A stretch of 64,000 nucleotides of DNA from a virus. The position numbers were made by a program, and so were the translations under genes. This document shows, in pieces, positions 6,853 through 64,000 of this stretch. The stretch covers positions 105,338-169,337 of the IMG/VR virus record IMGVR_UViG_3300018876_000008, one strand, 5' to 3'. A model generated the notes under the pieces. The model saw only the letters and a program-made list of their open reading frames with translations. It was not told where the DNA came from and made no database searches. Numbering within the stretch: the stretch's first letter is position 1; the number at the start of each line of letters is the position of its first letter.

Positions 6853-7524
6853 TTACTTCTTACTACGAATCACCTCATCGATAATTCCATACTCTAAAGC
6901 CTCTTCCGATGATAACCACAAATCACGGGACGCATCCTGTTTTACTTTTTCGGGGTCTTTATCACAAAATTCACCAAGTAGGTTAAATAATGTGTCATTT
7001 AGTTTAGTCCATTCTTTCATTGTAATTTCAGCATCTTGAATGTTACCTACCGCACCTCCCGATGATTGATGTAACATTGTACGAGAAAATCTAAGTGATG
7101 AACGTTTACCTTTAGTTCCCGCTCCCAATAGAATTGAACCCATAGATGCCGCCATACCTGTATTTACTGTAACAATATCAGATTTAATGTAGTGCATAAC
7201 ATCGACCATTGAAAGTCCTGATTTAACCGAACCACCAGGTGAATCAATATGCATCGTTATATCCATATTATCGACAGAATCTAAATACATAAGTTGTGCT
7301 TGTACCACTGTTGACATTGCGTCATTAACAGGTCCTGCAACCCATAAAAGACGGTCTCTCATTAATCTTGAGAAGATATCTAATTGTACTGCCCTCATCT
7401 CTCTTTCTTCTAAAATGTAAGGGGTCATAGAACCCTCAAGTTCTTTTTTAATGTGATGCATTGTTAATGAAGATAAATTATGTTCACTCATTGCATACTT
7501 TTGAAAATCTTTTCCGTAATCCAT
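6853..7524 (-). CDS. clpP: ATP-dependent Clp protease proteolytic subunit
   Basis: Serine protease of the ClpP fold, full length at 223 aa. The catalytic triad is visible: Ser128 in GMAASMG, His152 in MLHQSSGG and Asp201 in ASRDLWLSS. The oxyanion-side SPGGS motif is at residues 95-99. A 30-residue N-terminal extension precedes the usual start of the fold. It should form a barrel fed by an AAA+ partner; the ClpC at 50230, with a VGF docking loop, is the obvious candidate. A TACCTTTG promoter lies 39 nt upstream and a terminator follows. Confidence 0.93.
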   Translation of the reverse strand: MDYGKDFQKYAMSEHNLSSLTMHHIKKELEGSMTPYILEEREMRAVQLDIFSRLMRDRLLWVAGPVNDAMSTVVQAQLMYLDSVDNMDITMHIDSPGGSVKSGLSMVDVMHYIKSDIVTVNTGMAASMGSILLGAGTKGKRSSLRFSRTMLHQSSGGAVGNIQDAEITMKEWTKLNDTLFNLLGEFCDKDPEKVKQDASRDLWLSSEEALEYGIIDEVIRSKK

Positions 7525-8662: not shown

Positions 8663-9125
8663 ACCATTTAGGGGTTTTTCTATTTTTCCATTTAGAAAAA
8701 TAAGCTTTATCTCCGAGATAATAGTTTCTATAAGATTCTACAACAGATTTAACCTTATATTGGTTTGGCATTGCTTTAGGTGGTTCAGTAAAACCTTTAT
8801 CGGAAATGTTAGGTTTATTTACCACACACCATTCAATAACCTCCTGAGATTTGTGCTTACGACCATAACGGTAAGTGTATTCATAACATAACTCTAATCC
8901 TAATTCGCACAACCACAGATAATTGGTGATACTTTCACGTGCCCAAATAGAACATGGATGATTCTTATGTGATAATTTATAAGGTATCTCATTACTGATT
9001 GATTCTGTCATGTGATGTACTCCGCAAAGTAGTTGGGCGGATTCAAGTATCATTTTAACTACATGTTTGTCGTTGTGATATTCGGCACATTTCTTTACGT
9101 CTAAATCTAATACAAATATATTCAT
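8619..9125 (-). CDS. Conserved phage protein with YHxDKHVVKM motif, 168 aa
   Basis: The opening MNIFVLDLD followed by AEYHNDKHVVKMILESAQLL is a pattern I know from many large-phage proteins, sometimes loosely annotated as pyrimidine-dimer glycosylase-like. Several histidines and aspartates (H-N-D-K-H, NHPCSIWAR) could form an active or metal site. I cannot confirm a DNA-repair role. A TATATTTG promoter precedes it, putting it in the early/metabolic class. Confidence 0.75.
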   Translation of the reverse strand: MNIFVLDLDVKKCAEYHNDKHVVKMILESAQLLCGVHHMTESISNEIPYKLSHKNHPCSIWARESITNYLWLCELGLELCYEYTYRYGRKHKSQEVIEWCVVNKPNISDKGFTEPPKAMPNQYKVKSVVESYRNYYLGDKAYFSKWKNRKTPKWFSQGVENKLSLVSS

Positions 9126-9143
9126 AGTGTTTATTTATTAATA

Positions 9144-9151
9144 CAAATATA
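9144..9151 (-). promoter_or_regulatory. Host-type -7 element TATATTTG
   Basis: 18 nt upstream of the ATG at 9125. Confidence 0.6.
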
Positions 9152-9162
9152 ATAAAAAATGT

Positions 9163-9396
9163 TTAATTAAAGCCTAACTCTATCGACCGAAATGCTATTT
9201 TTTCAGAAATTAAATTCCACCTCTCTATTTCATTTACATGTGTTGAGTTAAATAAATCTATAACATCACTTGATAAGTCATCATTCATTACAAAGGCGTC
9301 CGCATGACCTAAATAAGTTTTTATCTCAGTTATCCCCCCTCTCCTGTATTTTTCAACTAATACTTCTTCTGTAATCCATCTTTTATGAAATCCCAT
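9163..9396 (-). CDS. Unknown protein, 77 aa
   Basis: No family recognised. Soluble and mixed charge; helical C-terminus (NEIERWNLISEKIAFRSIELGF). Lies 13 nt downstream of the P-loop gene at 9410 in the same direction, so probably the last gene of the run that starts near 11168. Confidence 0.65.
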   Translation of the reverse strand: MGFHKRWITEEVLVEKYRRGGITEIKTYLGHADAFVMNDDLSSDVIDLFNSTHVNEIERWNLISEKIAFRSIELGFN

Positions 9397-50215: not shown

Positions 50216-50243
50216 AAAAAAAGGGAAAATTAATTTCCCTTTT
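50216..50243 (-). terminator. Terminator of clpC
   Basis: AAAAAGGGAAA / TTTCCCTTTTT hairpin overlapping the clpC stop codon. Confidence 0.7.
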
Positions 50244-52251
50244 TAATGATTAATTCTTCATCGTTTTTCATTTCTACAGTAAAAGGTTTGTTTACTACAA
50301 TAGTACCTCTAAGAACTTCTTCAGAAATTAAATCTTCAATTTTTTCCTGTATTGCTCTTTTAATAGGTCTCGCCCCGTACTTTTCATCAAATCCAACTTT
50401 AGAAATAAATTCTTTAACTGAATCACTAAAATTAATATTATATTCCATTTCTTCTAAACGATTAGTTAATTTAAGTAATTCAATATCCACAATCTCAGAA
50501 ACTTCTTTTTCTTTTAGAGGGTTAAATACAACAACCTCATCTACACGATTTAAGAATTCAGGGGTAAAATGATTCTTTAATTCTTTTTGAAGTAACGCCT
50601 TTTTCATCTCTTCATTATTTGACATTCTATTAGAAGTCTCAAAACCAACACCTGTACCAAAATCTTGAAGTTTCTTAACCCCTAAATTAGATGTCATAAT
50701 AATCAAACAGTTCTTAAAATTAATTTTACGACCAAAACTATCGGTTAAGTGTCCATCATCCATCATTTGAAGTAATAATGAAAAAATATCTTTGTTAGCC
50801 TTCTCAATTTCATCGAACAAAACAACAGAATAAGGTTTGTTCTTAACCGCTTCAGTTAATTGACCTCCTTGGTCGTGACCAACATATCCTGGAGGAGAAC
50901 CAATTAATCTTGACATAGTGTACTTCTCTTGATATTCTGACATATCTACTCTAATTAAAGCGTCTTCAGCCCCAAATATCTCTTTTGCCAATTGTTTAGC
51001 TAAATGGGTTTTACCGATACCTGTAGAACCTAAGAATATAAAAGAACCGATAGGTCGATTAGGGTCTTTAATCCCAACTCTATTTCTACGAATAGCTTTA
51101 GAGATTTTTTCTACTGCAACTTTTTGACCGATTACAGAGCTATTAAGATTACCTTCTAAATTAAGTAGGGATTCTTTATCGTCAGAATTAAGTCTTGTAA
51201 CAGGTATTTTAGTCATAGTTGAAACAACCTCAAATACCATATCTTCAGTAATTGGTTTACGTTTTTGGTCTTTAGATAACTCAAACTTTTCTTTTTCATT
51301 ATCTAATTTTTTTAAGATTTTCTTCTCTTTATCACGTAATTCTGCTGCCTTTTCGTACTGCTGAGATTTTACTACTTCAATTTTTTCTTCTTTAATTTTA
51401 ACCGCATCTTCCTTTAACTTTTCAATTATTTCAGGAAGTTTGACGTTGATTTGAGCGCGGGCACCAACCTCATCCATAATATCGATAGCCTTATCAGGAA
51501 ATTCACGGTCAGTAATATATCTATCAGCAAGTGTTACACATGCTTTAAGTGAATTTTCACTATAAGTTACTTTATGATGTGATTCATAACGAGACTTTAA
51601 ATTTTCAAGAATGATTAAGGTTTCTGATGGAGTGGCACCATCAACAACAACTTTTTGGAACCTACGTTCAAGTGCACCATCTTTTTCTATGTTTTCACGG
51701 TATTCGTCAAGTGTTGTAGCTCCAATACATTGTAGTTCACCTCTTGCTAGTGCGGGTTTAAAAATATTAGAAGCGTCTAATGAACCTGAAGAATTACCTG
51801 CACCTATAATTGTGTGTATCTCATCAATAAAGACGATAATATCAGGATTCTCATAAAGTTCATCTAAAATAACTTTTAATCTTTCCTCAAATTGACCTCT
51901 ATATTTTGTACCTGCAACGATTGATGTCATATCCAAAGAGACGATACGTTTATCACATAAATTTTGGGGACAATCACCTTCGAAGATTTTCATTGCCAAT
52001 CCCTCTACAATTGCAGTTTTACCTGCACCTGGCTCACCTATAATAATTGGGTTATTCTTCTTTCTACGAGAAAGAATTTGAGCGATTCTATTAATTTCAT
52101 TTTCACGACCAACAACAGGGTCAAGTTTACCTTGTTCCGCATGTCTAATAAGGTCACGAGAAAAATTGTCTAAAACAGGTGTTTTAGAGTTACTCATTTC
52201 TTTAGGAGCTCTTCCTCCATCTTTTTCATTAGGGTCTAATGGTTCTATCAT
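50230..52251 (-). CDS. clpC: ClpC-type AAA+ unfoldase lacking the N-domain, 673 aa
   Basis: Two AAA+ modules: Walker A GEPGAGKT (72-79) and Walker B IIVFIDE (138-144); Walker A GSTGIGKT (408-415) and Walker B VVLFDE (476-481). Between them a ClpC-type middle domain with a UVR motif (QQYEKAAELRDKEKK, ~298-311). The VGF loop in FGTGVGFETS (~535-537) is the ClpC dock for ClpP, so it should feed the phage ClpP at 6853. The usual ~150-residue Clp N-domain is replaced by a ~25-residue acidic start. Two host-type promoters upstream. Confidence 0.93.
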   Translation of the reverse strand: MIEPLDPNEKDGGRAPKEMSNSKTPVLDNFSRDLIRHAEQGKLDPVVGRENEINRIAQILSRRKKNNPIIIGEPGAGKTAIVEGLAMKIFEGDCPQNLCDKRIVSLDMTSIVAGTKYRGQFEERLKVILDELYENPDIIVFIDEIHTIIGAGNSSGSLDASNIFKPALARGELQCIGATTLDEYRENIEKDGALERRFQKVVVDGATPSETLIILENLKSRYESHHKVTYSENSLKACVTLADRYITDREFPDKAIDIMDEVGARAQINVKLPEIIEKLKEDAVKIKEEKIEVVKSQQYEKAAELRDKEKKILKKLDNEKEKFELSKDQKRKPITEDMVFEVVSTMTKIPVTRLNSDDKESLLNLEGNLNSSVIGQKVAVEKISKAIRRNRVGIKDPNRPIGSFIFLGSTGIGKTHLAKQLAKEIFGAEDALIRVDMSEYQEKYTMSRLIGSPPGYVGHDQGGQLTEAVKNKPYSVVLFDEIEKANKDIFSLLLQMMDDGHLTDSFGRKINFKNCLIIMTSNLGVKKLQDFGTGVGFETSNRMSNNEEMKKALLQKELKNHFTPEFLNRVDEVVVFNPLKEKEVSEIVDIELLKLTNRLEEMEYNINFSDSVKEFISKVGFDEKYGARPIKRAIQEKIEDLISEEVLRGTIVVNKPFTVEMKNDEELIIKKGN

Positions 52252-58172: not shown

Positions 58173-59945
58173 ATGGGACTGTCAAGAGAACAAGCTTTAT
58201 TGGAGTATGCTAAATGTGTAAAGGATACACCTTACGCTCTTAAAACCTATCTACAAACTTACGATAACACACAATCACAATACGTTCCTTTAGAATTATT
58301 TTCTGACCAAAAGACACTCATAAATGACTATGACAATTATGAGGAAAATATTGCATTGAAGTATAGACAGGCGGGAGTATCTACAGTAACGGCCGCTTGG
58401 TCATCTAAAAAATTAGTAACCGCTTCTAAGAAAAAACCTGAAAAGATACTGATTATTGCAAATAAGTTAGACACTTCTCAAGAATTTGCAAATAAAGTTA
58501 GAAGTTTTATAGACCAATGGCCATCATGGTTTGGAATATCTTATTCTAATGAAAAGAATTCACAAAGACATTTTAAATTATCTAACGGGTGTGAAGTAAA
58601 AGCAGTTGCAACCTCAAAAGATGCACTTCGTGGTTATACTCCAACAATACTTATTTTTGATGAGGCAGCGTTTATCGATGCCGATGATGACTTTTGGTCT
58701 GCATGTATGGCCTCACTTTCTACAGGTGGTAAGGTAATAGTTATTTCTACACCTAATGGATTTGACCCAATTTATTATACCATATATGACCAAGCGTTAA
58801 GAGGTATGAATGATTTCAAAATAACTGAAATGTATTGGTACCGTGACCCTCGTTATGCCAAAGATTTAAAACTTATAAAATGTAATGATATAATACATTA
58901 TATGTTAAATCGTGAAGATTATGACGATAATAAAATTGTTGTCGATTATACTCACATTAACCCCCGTGAAAGAGATTATGATGAAATTAAGCAAAAAATC
59001 GCAGACGGATACAAAGTTTATTCTTCGTGGTTCGAAGGAATGGCTAAAAAACTTAAATTCGATAGGAGAAAAATCTCACAGGAATTGGAATGTAATTTCT
59101 TGGGTTCAGGTGATAACGTCATCCCAAGTACAACGATTGAAATAATTAAGCAAAACTTTATACAAGAACCTAAGAATAAATTTATTGGGGGTTCATTATG
59201 GCAATGGAAAGAACCCGTACAAGGACATAAGTACATAATGGGTATTGATGTATCTCGTGGTGATAGTGAAGATTATACTACATTTACTATAATTGATTTT
59301 GAAACAAGAGAACAGGTTTTAGAATATTTAGGTAAAGTACCACCAGATGTCATTGCAGAAATTGCATTTAAATGGGCCACTATGTATTCAGCCTTTGTTG
59401 TAATTGATATTACAGGAGGTATGGGTGTATCAACATCAAGAAAACTACAAGAATTGGGTTATAAAAATTTATATGTTGAAGGATTAAATACTGCAAACAA
59501 ATGGAAATATAATCCTAAGGCACTTGAAAAAATACCGGGGTTAAACTTTAATAACAAAAGGGTTCAGATTGTTGCGTCATTTGAAGAGGCTTTGAGACAT
59601 AATTTTGAGATACGTTCTTCAAGATTATTAAATGAACTTAATACGTTTGTTTATATAAACGGAAGACCTGACCACCAAAAAGGTCAACATGATGATTTAA
59701 TTATGGCAATTGCTATGGCGATATATGTTGGTGAAAATTCATTTACACAGTTAGAAAAAGTGACTGAACAAACTAAAGCAATGATGGAAAGTTGGATGGT
59801 AAATGAAACTCCTGTAAAAAACACCTCTAACGATTTTAATCCAGGTATACCTGTTATGCCAGGAGGAATAAACCACCATAGAAGAAACGGACAGGCTAGT
59901 AAGCAAGACTATCAGGATAATTCATGGTTATTTGGAAGATTTTAA
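58173..59945 (+). CDS. terL: Terminase large subunit (T4 gp17-like), 590 aa
   Basis: ATPase part: Walker A-like RQAGVST (65-71), Walker B ILIFDEAAF (159-167) with catalytic Glu, coupling motif STPNG (192-196). Nuclease part: MGIDVSRGDSEDYTTF, VVIDITGGMG and HDDLIMAIAMA supply the metal-binding acids. This is the motor that packages DNA into the prohead and cuts it. Full length for the family. No small-subunit gene recognised nearby. Confidence 0.96.
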   Translation: MGLSREQALLEYAKCVKDTPYALKTYLQTYDNTQSQYVPLELFSDQKTLINDYDNYEENIALKYRQAGVSTVTAAWSSKKLVTASKKKPEKILIIANKLDTSQEFANKVRSFIDQWPSWFGISYSNEKNSQRHFKLSNGCEVKAVATSKDALRGYTPTILIFDEAAFIDADDDFWSACMASLSTGGKVIVISTPNGFDPIYYTIYDQALRGMNDFKITEMYWYRDPRYAKDLKLIKCNDIIHYMLNREDYDDNKIVVDYTHINPRERDYDEIKQKIADGYKVYSSWFEGMAKKLKFDRRKISQELECNFLGSGDNVIPSTTIEIIKQNFIQEPKNKFIGGSLWQWKEPVQGHKYIMGIDVSRGDSEDYTTFTIIDFETREQVLEYLGKVPPDVIAEIAFKWATMYSAFVVIDITGGMGVSTSRKLQELGYKNLYVEGLNTANKWKYNPKALEKIPGLNFNNKRVQIVASFEEALRHNFEIRSSRLLNELNTFVYINGRPDHQKGQHDDLIMAIAMAIYVGENSFTQLEKVTEQTKAMMESWMVNETPVKNTSNDFNPGIPVMPGGINHHRRNGQASKQDYQDNSWLFGRF

Positions 59946-59992: not shown

Positions 59993-61855
59993 ATGGCAGA
60001 AAATTATACTATATGGCAACGACTTACTAAAGTGTTCGGTCCTGACTCAACGTTAGACCAACAAGCGCCTACATTTAAGTTTGATAAGAAAGAACTTTTA
60101 AAGACTCCTGATAAAAAGGAGTATGAAAGAGAAAGGTTACAAGCACAACAAACTTTATATCTTGGTCAACAATGGCAAAAGATAGAAAATAATCTATATA
60201 CACAAGCAGTATATTACGAACCTACAAGATTAGCGTCATTTTATGATTATGAGAGTATGGAATATACTCCTGAAATATCTGCAGCTTTAGATATATACGG
60301 TGAAGAATCAACAACAGCAAATGAAGATGGATACATATTACAAATTTATTCAGAAAGTAAACGTATTAAATCAGTACTTGGAGACTTATTTAACAATAGA
60401 CTCGACATTAGTACTAACCTACCTATGTGGACGAGAAATACTTGTAAATATGGAGATAATTTTGTCTACCTAAAGTTAGACCCTGAAAAGGGTGTTGTAG
60501 GTTGTCAACAATTACCTAATATTGAAATTACTCGACAAGAAAGGGGTATGAAGATGAAGCCTGAGAGAAACAGTACTGATACTGAGAACGACGCATTAAA
60601 GTTCTTATGGCAAAATAAAGATATGGTTCTTAATACATGGGAGATGGCTCACTTTAGATTATTAGGTGATGACCGTAAATTACCTTATGGTACTTCTATG
60701 TTAGAAAAAGCGAGAAGAATTTGGAAACAACTAATTCTTTCTGAAGATGCTATGTTAGTATATCGTACATCAAGAGCACCTGAAAGAAGAGTATTTAAAG
60801 TGTTTGTAGGTAATATGGATGATAAGGATGTTGAACCATATGTACAAAGAGTCGCCAACAAATTTAAAAGAGACCAAGTAGTTGATTCCAATAACGGTAA
60901 TGTTGATTTAAGAATGAATCAAATGGCAGTAGACCAAGATTATTTCATTCCTGTTAGAGATGCTAATGCACCTAACCCAATTGATACTTTACCAGGAGCT
61001 CAGAACTTATCTGAAATAGCAGATATTGAATATATTCAAAAGAAATTATTAACCGCACTTAGAGTCCCTAAAGCATTTTTAGGGTTTGAAGAGGTTGTTG
61101 GTGATGGTAAAAACTTAGCTTTACAAGATATTAGATTTGCACGTACTATTAATAGAATACAAAAATCTATGATTCAAGAACTTAATAAGATTGCTATCAT
61201 ACACTTATATTTATTAGGTTTTGAAGATGAGTTAAATAATTTTACTTTAGGATTAACAAATCCATCTACTCAGGCGGATTTACTTAAAGTTGAACAATGG
61301 CAACAAAAAATACAATTGTATCGTGACGCAGTGTCTGACCCAGGTAATGGGATACAACCTGTATCTTCTTCGTGGGCTAAGAAACATATACTCGGTTTTT
61401 CTGATGAAGAAATTAAATTAGATTTACAACAACAAAGAATTGAAAAGGCTGTTGGAGCAGAACTTGAAAAAACTTCAGAAACTATTTCTAAAACAGGAAT
61501 ATTTGCAAACATAGATAAATTATACGGTAATAAACCTGGAGAAGGTGGTGCACCTGAAGGGGAAGTTACTGAACCTTCCGATACAGGTTTTGGCGGAGGT
61601 GACTTCGGTGGCGGGGGAGACTTCGGTGGTGGAGGTGATTTAGGTGGTGACTTAGGTGGAGATTTAAGTGATACAGGAACTGATACGGGTGGAGACACTG
61701 GTGGTGAAGTAACACCTGAAAGTATTGAAAATAAAGATTTAAATATGATTTTAGAAAATGATATGATTAATGGTATATCTGAAATAGATTTATCAAAAGG
61801 TAGAGTTTCATTAGGTAAAATCGAAGATGAATTGAAAACATTACTAGATGACTAA
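59993..61855 (+). CDS. Portal vertex protein (T4 gp20-like), 620 aa
   Basis: Typical myovirus portal elements: YDYESMEYTPEISAALDIYGEES, CKYGDNFVYLKLD, LPYGTSMLEKARRIWKQL, DAMLVYRTSRAPERRVFKVFVG and IQKKLLTALRVPKAFLGFEE. It forms the dodecameric ring for DNA passage and terminase docking. An extra C-terminal stretch (~545-590) is glycine/aspartate-rich (GGGDFGGGGDLGG), followed by a helical end; this is not usual for portals. Confidence 0.95.
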   Translation: MAENYTIWQRLTKVFGPDSTLDQQAPTFKFDKKELLKTPDKKEYERERLQAQQTLYLGQQWQKIENNLYTQAVYYEPTRLASFYDYESMEYTPEISAALDIYGEESTTANEDGYILQIYSESKRIKSVLGDLFNNRLDISTNLPMWTRNTCKYGDNFVYLKLDPEKGVVGCQQLPNIEITRQERGMKMKPERNSTDTENDALKFLWQNKDMVLNTWEMAHFRLLGDDRKLPYGTSMLEKARRIWKQLILSEDAMLVYRTSRAPERRVFKVFVGNMDDKDVEPYVQRVANKFKRDQVVDSNNGNVDLRMNQMAVDQDYFIPVRDANAPNPIDTLPGAQNLSEIADIEYIQKKLLTALRVPKAFLGFEEVVGDGKNLALQDIRFARTINRIQKSMIQELNKIAIIHLYLLGFEDELNNFTLGLTNPSTQADLLKVEQWQQKIQLYRDAVSDPGNGIQPVSSSWAKKHILGFSDEEIKLDLQQQRIEKAVGAELEKTSETISKTGIFANIDKLYGNKPGEGGAPEGEVTEPSDTGFGGGDFGGGGDFGGGGDLGGDLGGDLSDTGTDTGGDTGGEVTPESIENKDLNMILENDMINGISEIDLSKGRVSLGKIEDELKTLLDD

Positions 61856-61876: not shown

Positions 61877-62611
61877 ATGAATAAATTTGGACAAATAAAA
61901 TCAAATATAGAATCTTTAATGACTGAGTCATATGGTAAAGGTTCATTTAAGAACCACATGAAATCTTTCAAAAAGAATATAATAGAGAATGAAAAACTTG
62001 CCGAAGCGTATTTTTTGTACGATGAACTAAGTAAGAAAAAAGGTCTTTCAAAGGATATTGTTGATGATTATGTTAACGAAAGTATTGAAACAATTAAAAA
62101 CATCATAGTATCTGAATCTAAAAATTTAAAAGAACTTAACATGTGGATTTCAGAAAATGTTACCAAAAATGTAACTAACGAATATTCTGATATTGATACT
62201 GTAGTATATAGTAAATCAGTTAAGAACTTAGAAAAAGTTTTAGAATGTAAAAATAATATAAAGAATTTAATTGGTCAAAATTTAGAAAATGTAACTGTTT
62301 CTGAATCTTTAAACATACCTTTAAGTTCAATGTTAAAAATTGCAACTAATACGTTTAACAAAGAATATGGTAATATTAGTGAAGAGGATAAGAAAGAATT
62401 GAAAAATCTTTTATCCTTAAACAAAAGTCAATTATCTGAAGAGATAACAAAATCAAAAGAAATTGTTTTAGAAAAATTATCCGAAAAAGTAAATGAATCT
62501 AATGATGAGGATTTAAAACAAAAAGTTACTCAAACAATTGAAAGGATTAATGAAACAAAAGACTCTTTAGTTTCTTTATATAAGTTAAGACAGTTAGAAC
62601 AAGGTTTATAA
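61877..62611 (+). CDS. Helical head-operon protein, 244 aa
   Basis: All-helical, charged, Asn/Lys/Glu-rich; no known domain. N-terminus IKSNIESLMTESYGKG is similar in style to the tagged proteins but lacks a clean (L/I)xE. Between portal and protease, the place of small core proteins in T4-type head clusters; such a role is inference. Confidence 0.78.
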   Translation: MNKFGQIKSNIESLMTESYGKGSFKNHMKSFKKNIIENEKLAEAYFLYDELSKKKGLSKDIVDDYVNESIETIKNIIVSESKNLKELNMWISENVTKNVTNEYSDIDTVVYSKSVKNLEKVLECKNNIKNLIGQNLENVTVSESLNIPLSSMLKIATNTFNKEYGNISEEDKKELKNLLSLNKSQLSEEITKSKEIVLEKLSEKVNESNDEDLKQKVTQTIERINETKDSLVSLYKLRQLEQGL

Positions 62612-62622
62612 TATTAGATATA

Positions 62623-62653
62623 AAAAAAGGATTCAGTCTTCTGAATCCTTTAT
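62623..62653. terminator. Bidirectional terminator
   Basis: AAAGGATTCAG-tctt-CTGAATCCTTT between the convergent head gene and rpsU; covers the rpsU stop. Confidence 0.75.
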
Positions 62654-62824
62654 TTTTTGTATATAAATGGCTTTTTGTTTTTGTTTCCTTCGTTTGGATG
62701 ATTTCTTTGTAAATTCTTTTTCACTTCTAAGCCTATCCAATTGCTTAGTCTTGTAAACTTTGTTTTTGTACCTTTTAAGGGCCCTTTCTATATTTTCTTT
62801 TTTTCCAACTTTGATTATTAACAT
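62633..62824 (-). CDS. rpsU: Ribosomal protein bS21
   Basis: Matches bS21 end to end: LIIKVGKKENIERALKRYKNK, then KQLDRLRSEKEF and the basic tail RRKQKQKAIYIQK. Length 63 aa is typical for Bacteroidota bS21. The protein joins the 30S platform near the anti-Shine-Dalgarno sequence. Tyr54, the position implicated (from memory) in hiding the anti-SD in Bacteroidota ribosomes, is kept. It is encoded antisense within the head cluster under two overlapping late-type motifs. Confidence 0.92.
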   Translation of the reverse strand: MLIIKVGKKENIERALKRYKNKVYKTKQLDRLRSEKEFTKKSSKRRKQKQKAIYIQKIKDSED

Positions 62825-62835
62825 ATACTGTCTAT

Positions 62836-62847
62836 TATAAATAAATA
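62836..62847 (-). promoter_or_regulatory. Overlapping late-type motifs
   Basis: TATTTATT and TATTTATA overlap, ending 11 nt before the rpsU ATG. Confidence 0.5.
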
Positions 62848-62930
62848 TATTGTAATAGTCAATATTTTGACATCCACCCTTTTTATGGTTATATTTTTGG
62901 TGTAAATAAACATTAGAATTATGAAATTAT

Positions 62931-63368
62931 ATGAAAAAAGGAAAAACGTCCCAATTACAGGGATACGAACATGCAAAATGCAGTTATGGAACAGTTGATG
63001 CAAAAAAATTAAAATCAGTATATGTTCTAATACAGAGTTGGGTTGAACCTACAGTAAATGTAAGTAATTGGTCAAGAACAACAGGTATGTTAGAAAGAAA
63101 TATAAAACATCACTTATTAGAGGTGGTGGACCCTATAATATTTGAAAAACATAATATTGTAGATTTAGATTTAAGGAGTAGTGGAATTCAATTAGGTAAA
63201 AGAAGTTTTATGAATTTAGAAATTACTTTATTCTTAAAAGAACACATGGACTTTAAATCTATAATATTAAGGGATAGAATAAAACAAATAGTAAACACAA
63301 TATATGGTTATCCATTAATGAAATCACAACATTTCATTTTACATAAAACTAAAAAACAGTCAGTTTAA
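62931..63368 (+). CDS. Unknown head-operon protein, 145 aa
   Basis: No family recognised. Basic, mixed fold, with a C-terminal helix (FKSIILRDRIKQIVNTIYGYP). No membrane helix. Divergent from rpsU; no clear promoter motif immediately upstream. Confidence 0.7.
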   Translation: MKKGKTSQLQGYEHAKCSYGTVDAKKLKSVYVLIQSWVEPTVNVSNWSRTTGMLERNIKHHLLEVVDPIIFEKHNIVDLDLRSSGIQLGKRSFMNLEITLFLKEHMDFKSIILRDRIKQIVNTIYGYPLMKSQHFILHKTKKQSV

Positions 63369-63391: not shown

Positions 63392-63772
63392 ATGAAAGTT
63401 ATTATCACAGAAAATCAATTACTAAGATTATTTGAAGCAAATACAGTTTTAGATAATCTTAATAATTTGATTGACCCTAAAAAGTTGATATATAAATATG
63501 GTTACAAAGATTCAGTTGTGATACCAAGTGAAGTTTTTATGGAAGGTAGTATTGAAGATGAGGATATTACAATTCATGTAAGTATTGGTGAAGTAAGGTA
63601 TAATGGAGAGGATGTTACTGAATTTGCAAACAATTATGTTTTTTGGTCAGGGGAAGGTGATGATAGTGAGTTGGCATATAAATATAAAATGTTTATTAGT
63701 GACGAAATAAATAAAATATTAAGGGTAACACCCATTAAAACAAATGAATGGGATGTTCATTTAGGAATATAA
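63392..63772 (+). CDS. Tagged candidate internal head protein, 126 aa
   Basis: N-terminus MKVIITENQLLRLFEA: predicted prohead cleavage after E15. It is nearly the same tag as in the minus-strand gene at 26784. The remaining ~110 residues are acidic beta/alpha without known domain. Its position right before the protease gene suits a small internal protein. Confidence 0.72.
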   Translation: MKVIITENQLLRLFEANTVLDNLNNLIDPKKLIYKYGYKDSVVIPSEVFMEGSIEDEDITIHVSIGEVRYNGEDVTEFANNYVFWSGEGDDSELAYKYKMFISDEINKILRVTPIKTNEWDVHLGI

Positions 63773-63794: not shown

Positions 63795-64000
63795 ATGAAA
63801 ATATTAGGACCAAATGATACGGGTAAAGGAATTTTAATCGAGTGGGACGCTGGATTTATAAACCCAAACGATAAACGTAACGCCGACATTATAAAAGAAT
63901 CGTATGGTCAGTTAGACCATTCTAAACCTTTCGAGTTCTATGCCGTATTACAGAAATACGACACCCCAAATAGAAATGGAAGAATTTACCCTGAACAAAT
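63795..64000 (+). CDS. Prohead core protease (gp21-like), partial
   Basis: Only the first ~68 codons are in the window. The stretch KPFEFYAVLQKYDTPNRNGR followed by IYP is typical of the N-terminal part of T4-type prohead proteases, serine enzymes that cut head proteins at (L/I)xE sites and then degrade themselves. Catalytic residues lie beyond the edge. Location after portal matches T4 order. Confidence 0.85.
   Translation, partial: MKILGPNDTGKGILIEWDAGFINPNDKRNADIIKESYGQLDHSKPFEFYAVLQKYDTPNRNGRIYPEQ

Follow-up and report, generated by a model that had tools for sequence, protein, structure and literature searches.

No ribosomal protein turns up in phages more often than bS21, whose purpose there is still unproven. 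The question at stake is whether a phage bS21 serves ribosome supply or ribosome selectivity. We addressed it at a locus in a stretch of 64,000 nucleotides (the window), positions 105,338 to 169,337 and thus the last part of the 169,337-base virus record IMGVR_UViG_3300018876_000008 of IMG/VR, which is possibly a fragment. The virus is a large, T4-like virus of flavobacteria that carries its own copy of bS21, reversed among head-building genes. Its family offers a testable case: the host rpsU has a strong Shine-Dalgarno (SD) sequence and the phage copy has none, and in one naturally occurring lineage the gene is missing from this site. What is added here concerns how the viral bS21 gene may escape the host's own control of bS21. 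Two earlier studies, Chen et al. 2022 (PMC9723584) and McNutt et al. 2023 (PMC9976891), are cited throughout from excerpts.

A bS21 gene reversed among head genes

The bS21 open reading frame (Table 1) matches PF01165 over residues 4–54 (E 6.5e-10; profile positions 2–52 of 55) with a score of 39 bits, above the Pfam gathering cut-off of 27. It aligns to the F. johnsoniae bS21 (PDB 7jil, E 3e-12) over residues 1–61, nearly the whole length, with Tyr54 in register, so that the full bS21 gene retaining Tyr54 called by the first-pass annotation is confirmed. The dN/dS value is about 0.04 against the close relatives L014 and L036, similar to that of the portal gene; dS was saturated in five other pairs, which gave no ratio. 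By this measure the gene is under strong purifying selection, which together with the PF01165 match led us to reject a chance open reading frame. Genes were called as simple open reading frame picks rather than with a trained gene finder. This is the only bS21 in the whole record.

The gene had also been described as embedded antisense in the head cluster, between portal-region genes and the protease. The location is borne out by a gp20-type portal gene upstream and an S77 prohead protease downstream. As the window stops within the protease gene, this enzyme and the Gp23 capsid protein that follows it were identified on the relative L034. The term antisense holds for orientation only: bS21 lies on the reverse strand among the head genes but fills a 319-bp intergenic gap, and an overlap with a sense gene was rejected since none overlaps it.

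Table 1. Features of the bS21 locus, with coordinates in the window.
Feature	Position	Strand	Basis
Terminase large subunit	58173-59945	+	PF03237 E 3.7e-13; phrog_2
gp20-type portal protein, with late motif	59993-61855	+	PF07230 E 3.1e-77; late class
orf244, conserved 244-aa gene between portal and bS21, with late motif	61877-62611	+	synteny; late class
Bidirectional terminator hairpin common to bS21 and head genes	62626-62651	.	z -5.4
bS21 (rpsU) gene, 63 aa	62633-62824	-	PF01165 and PDB 7jil matches, Tyr54, SD-less leader
Sigma-70-like TTGACT-17-TATAAT overlapping the late motifs, 11/12 consensus positions	62834-62862	-	consensus scan
Two overlapping late motifs TATTTAT (62847-62841 and 62843-62837)	62837-62847	-	23 and 19 nt before bS21 ATG
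Inverted repeat GTCAATATTTTGAC between bS21 and CN	62858-62871	.	leader comparison; sequence
Host-type promoter of CN: TTG (62867-62869), 22 nt, TATTTTTG (62892-62899)	62867-62899	+	sequence; host-type class
bS21_CN-like gene (CN), 145 aa, divergent neighbour of bS21	62931-63368	+	syntenic in relatives
126-aa gene with late motif	63392-63772	+	synteny; late class
Prohead protease gene, start only (cut by window end)	63795-64000	+	L034 orthologue Peptidase_S77, E 5.9e-24

Residues typical of the ribosomal protein are retained across the phage copies. Position 54 is Tyr in 71, His in six and Phe in two of 79 distinct sequences; the aromatic residue here stacks on A1534 of the 16S rRNA (PMC9723584). 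K40, R46, K51 and A52, like the aromatic residue 54, are present in all copies or nearly so, and the C-terminal anchoring residues are host-like. Positions 23–28 carry a nearly fixed phage signature (V23, K27 and Q28), where the host has F23, G27 and T28. The F. johnsoniae protein (PDB 7jil; PMC9976891) is thus of the same family and length and shares Tyr54 but differs within residues 21–28, and only the host gene has an extended SD.

A recent acquisition from a present-day host is unsupported, as the syntenic phage bS21s separate from host sequences, weakly (64/74) and on only 64 columns. An origin from the host's SD-free paralog is likewise unsupported: the largest SD-free host group forms a clade of its own (100/98).

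Conservation of the locus and comparison with known phages

In a comparison of 150 loci from viral contigs, some of which were fetched twice, the order terminase, portal, orf244, reversed bS21, CN, protease recurs at nearly every locus that covers the site, even where the portals are only ~60–70% identical. The exceptions are L150 (6830–6969) and L156 (8566–8704), near-identical to each other at the bS21 site, in which CN follows orf244 directly with about 138 bp between them; both retain a terminator-like hairpin as well as CN with its promoter. bS21 was not found in either record (47.7 and 17.2 kb, which may be incomplete). With no bS21 at this site in L150 and L156, the gene would not be indispensable in all relatives. 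A search of the phage collection for cultivated relatives yielded a single bS21 match, weak and partial, and none to CN.

The arrangement is that of the Bacteroidetes phages of clades a–e described by Chen et al. 2022 (PMC9723584), in which a T4-like head cluster likewise comprises the genes for terminase, portal, prohead protease and capsid protein. They also have a reverse-strand bS21 between two conserved hypothetical genes, an aromatic residue 54 and phage-type residues at positions 21, 23 and 28, and for which late transcription was proposed. Their complete genomes span 293–331 kb and come mostly from freshwater lakes; the record here is 169 kb, possibly a fragment, and is likened to them by description. 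That paper already contains the arrangement, the conservation of an aromatic residue at position 54, late expression and a proposed ribosome substitution. The central idea is therefore not new, and the window phage is another member of the same kind. The promoter motif is not described in the excerpts of PMC9723584, and the SD contrast, the leader spacing, the cases of CN without bS21 and the terminator overlap were not found in those of PMC9723584 and PMC9976891, which is no proof of their absence elsewhere.

Two further phages share parts of the arrangement. The T4-like phage Mel-JY01 (PP395634; host given as Microcystis) also has rpsU near the prohead protease but, unlike here, two genes after it and on the head-gene strand (9057–9284 of locus L289); the portal of this cyanophage is related to that of the window. 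In the cultured Flavobacterium phage vB_FspM_immuto (MW353175), whose portal is related (38% identity), terminase, portal and protease follow one another as here, but no bS21 is annotated in that region.

A late promoter class and its leaders

The first-pass annotation had placed bS21 in a late class on the strength of two overlapping motifs, and both TATTTAT copies stand at the distances given in Table 1. The motif belongs to a class found across the record: of its 39 TATTTAT-N1-3-TAA sites, 26 are followed within 45 nt by a start codon on the sense strand, against 1.2 expected, and dinucleotide shuffling of upstream regions left a mean of two genes with the motif compared with 23 observed. 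Within 60 nt, the late-type motif occurs at 34 genes and the host-type TAnnTTTG at 29, with only one gene having both. TATTTAT is a real promoter-like class, almost exclusive of the host-type class; for Bacteroidota promoters the consensus is TAnnTTTG and not TATAAT. As in T4-like phages, individual late-class genes have a promoter element of their own: TATTTAT precedes orf244 and the genes for the portal, protease, tail fibre and endolysin. Host-type promoters precede, among others, genes for a DNA methyltransferase and for ATP-dependent and ClpP-like proteases. No gp55-like late sigma factor was found among 20 mid-sized phage proteins scanned.

In relatives, TATTTAT is found nearly always before orf244 and the protease gene, mostly before the portal gene and never before CN. 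For bS21 itself, the late class holds with a qualification: the exact motif precedes the gene in 29 of 31 distinct close leaders versus 14 of 40 distant ones, which carry a related but different sequence near the ATG, so that late control is less certain from sequence in distant relatives. Chen et al. 2022 (PMC9723584) measured late-phase bS21 transcripts in freshwater phages that share this arrangement, and related phages transcribe the gene highly, together with capsid genes (PMC9723584). bS21 is probably switched on late, as its promoter motif indicates, and we infer late synthesis of the protein as well.

An early action at takeover appears improbable, given that the late motif is kept in close relatives and that TATAAT is not the Bacteroidota element. 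It would have the protein made early from a host-type promoter, for which the TTGACT-17-TATAAT site before bS21 and the GATATTTGTA-like sequences near the ATG in distant relatives, which resemble the host -7 element, could be taken as candidates. Alternatively, bS21 could be packed in the virion, a possibility raised in PMC9723584.

Between the first base of the last TATTTAT and the ATG, the spacing in the record is 11–13 nt in 16 genes, 14–18 nt in none, 19–25 nt in 23 and otherwise in 13. This two-peaked distribution extends over the whole record, with examples at window starts 2329, 24855, 35776 and 53172, and spacings of 13–16 nt are nearly empty in relatives. Short spacings recur in orthologues of the portal (L107) and terminase (L054, L063 and L131) genes, whose starts are fixed by homology. 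Read most simply, the spacing would place the transcription start some 11 nt past the beginning of the motif, in which case late messages would be leaderless or carry leaders of about 9 nt. Late messages thus seem to have very short leaders or none, and little mRNA would reach the bS21 platform. If the leaders are this short, how much bS21 matters for their translation would itself come into question.

The Shine-Dalgarno contrast

The extended SD of F. johnsoniae rpsU serves autoregulation, and bS21, which is needed for growth of this organism, also affects initiation: ribosomes free of bS21 are quicker to initiate on rpsU and slower on mRNAs without an SD (PMC9976891). We computed pairing of each leader with the 16S 3′ tail alike for all genes, assuming the common Bacteroidota tail rather than the host's own. 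On this scale the window bS21 leader pairs at −1.3 kcal/mol, against about −17.6 kcal/mol for host rpsU; canonical Flavobacteriaceae rpsU leaders range from −17 to −23 kcal/mol. The window leader lacks the extended SD (below −13 kcal/mol) that marks host rpsU. A strong SD is absent from 80 of 81 distinct phage bS21 leaders, the one value below −10 kcal/mol being −12.2 in L128. SD sequences are rare among the genes of this phage generally (2/223 below −10 kcal/mol).

Two or more bS21 genes are present in 41 of 100 Flavobacteriaceae genomes in an even draw. In a separate set of 22 genomes with two or more bS21 genes read, picked as query matches and hence not a random sample, exactly one bS21 has a strong SD in every case.

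The divergent neighbour and the shared terminator

The TTTTGAC half of the inverted repeat between bS21 and CN is found again in most relatives and is likely the -33 element of the CN promoter. The structure model of bS21_CN is confident (pLDDT 90.7). No PDB entry matched it in a fold search at E below 0.001, the best Z being 7.6. An uncharacterised Myoviridae phage protein gave the one strong match (TM 0.84); the weak matches include some tail-terminator and neck proteins.

The fixed position of bS21 among head genes, and the similarity of the bS21 and bS21_CN phylogenies (PMC9723584), would suit a non-ribosomal function, for example in head assembly or jointly with bS21_CN. We consider such a function very improbable: in L150 and L156 CN persists with its promoter although bS21 is missing, the promoter class of CN differs from that of bS21, and residues typical of ribosomal bS21 are conserved.

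On the minus strand, the last part of the bS21 coding sequence forms the 5′ arm of the terminator hairpin. Among ten close relatives, a small comparison set in which one position is often unpaired, 94.5% of cells are paired and two pairs are changed on both sides.

Proposed role of the phage bS21

We read the phage bS21 as a working ribosomal protein that replaces host bS21 on the 30S subunit late in infection, and we give about an even chance to this replacement, with the anti-Shine-Dalgarno (ASD) sequence kept sequestered and synthesis outside the host loop. The phage protein would take the place of host bS21 on 30S subunits in the late phase, the 3′ tail of the 16S rRNA would stay sequestered, and ribosomes would stay competent for SD-less phage late messages when the host supply of bS21 lags. 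In the host loop, bS21-free ribosomes preferentially translate rpsU; phage bS21 synthesis would be uncoupled from it because the gene lacks the extended SD and belongs to the phage late promoter class. Since phage messages lack an SD, the phage would need bS21-replete ribosomes. Exchange of host for phage bS21 was discussed by McNutt et al. 2023 (PMC9976891). The one demonstrated case of incorporation into 30S, cited in both PMC9723584 and PMC9976891, concerns the bS21 of another phage in E. coli. We infer, in repetition of the published proposal, that the phage protein alters ribosomes. Counted against replacement are the bS21-less L150 and L156, the exact late motif mostly missing in distant relatives and the overlapping sigma-70-like site.

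Under the reading of Chen et al. 2022, the N-terminally divergent phage protein would instead yield specialised ribosomes that prefer phage over host messages. The selectivity model keeps a place because the phage signature at positions 23–28 is nearly fixed, and V23, K27 and Q28 agree with the divergent positions that PMC9723584 lists. It is nevertheless doubtful in our view: late leaders that look leaderless or about 9 nt long would give bS21 little to recognise, host messages likewise lack an SD and so offer no evident feature to discriminate by, and the host-like C-terminal anchoring residues speak against specific selection of phage leaders.

Set beside replacement on the 30S subunit, we tentatively entertain a further possibility, namely that the phage sidesteps host bS21 feedback. 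An SD-free, late bS21 together with messages whose leaders, at about 9 nt or none, hardly touch the bS21/ASD platform might sustain late translation whatever host bS21 does. The same split into autoregulated and unregulated copies would then exist in those Flavobacteriaceae whose second bS21 is SD-free and often neighbours a primary-sigma-factor gene.

A protease that would remove host bS21 is raised as a speculation by McNutt et al. (PMC9976891). The window encodes a ClpP/head-protease-like gene (6853-7524, minus strand) and an ATP-dependent protease gene (50230-52251, minus strand), both with host-type promoters, and the two are possible candidates for such an activity.

Many Flavobacteriaceae have, besides the SD-bearing rpsU, a second, SD-free bS21 of the KHRNVKVMQNLR type (SD status from L158–L287). 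In L163, L180, L190 and L194 it lies directly downstream of a primary-sigma-factor-like gene (RpoD type, by eye). Rare third types occur in L275, L281, L282 and L283, some with a phage-like KTKQ or similar segment, and that of L275 sits among cold-shock-like genes.
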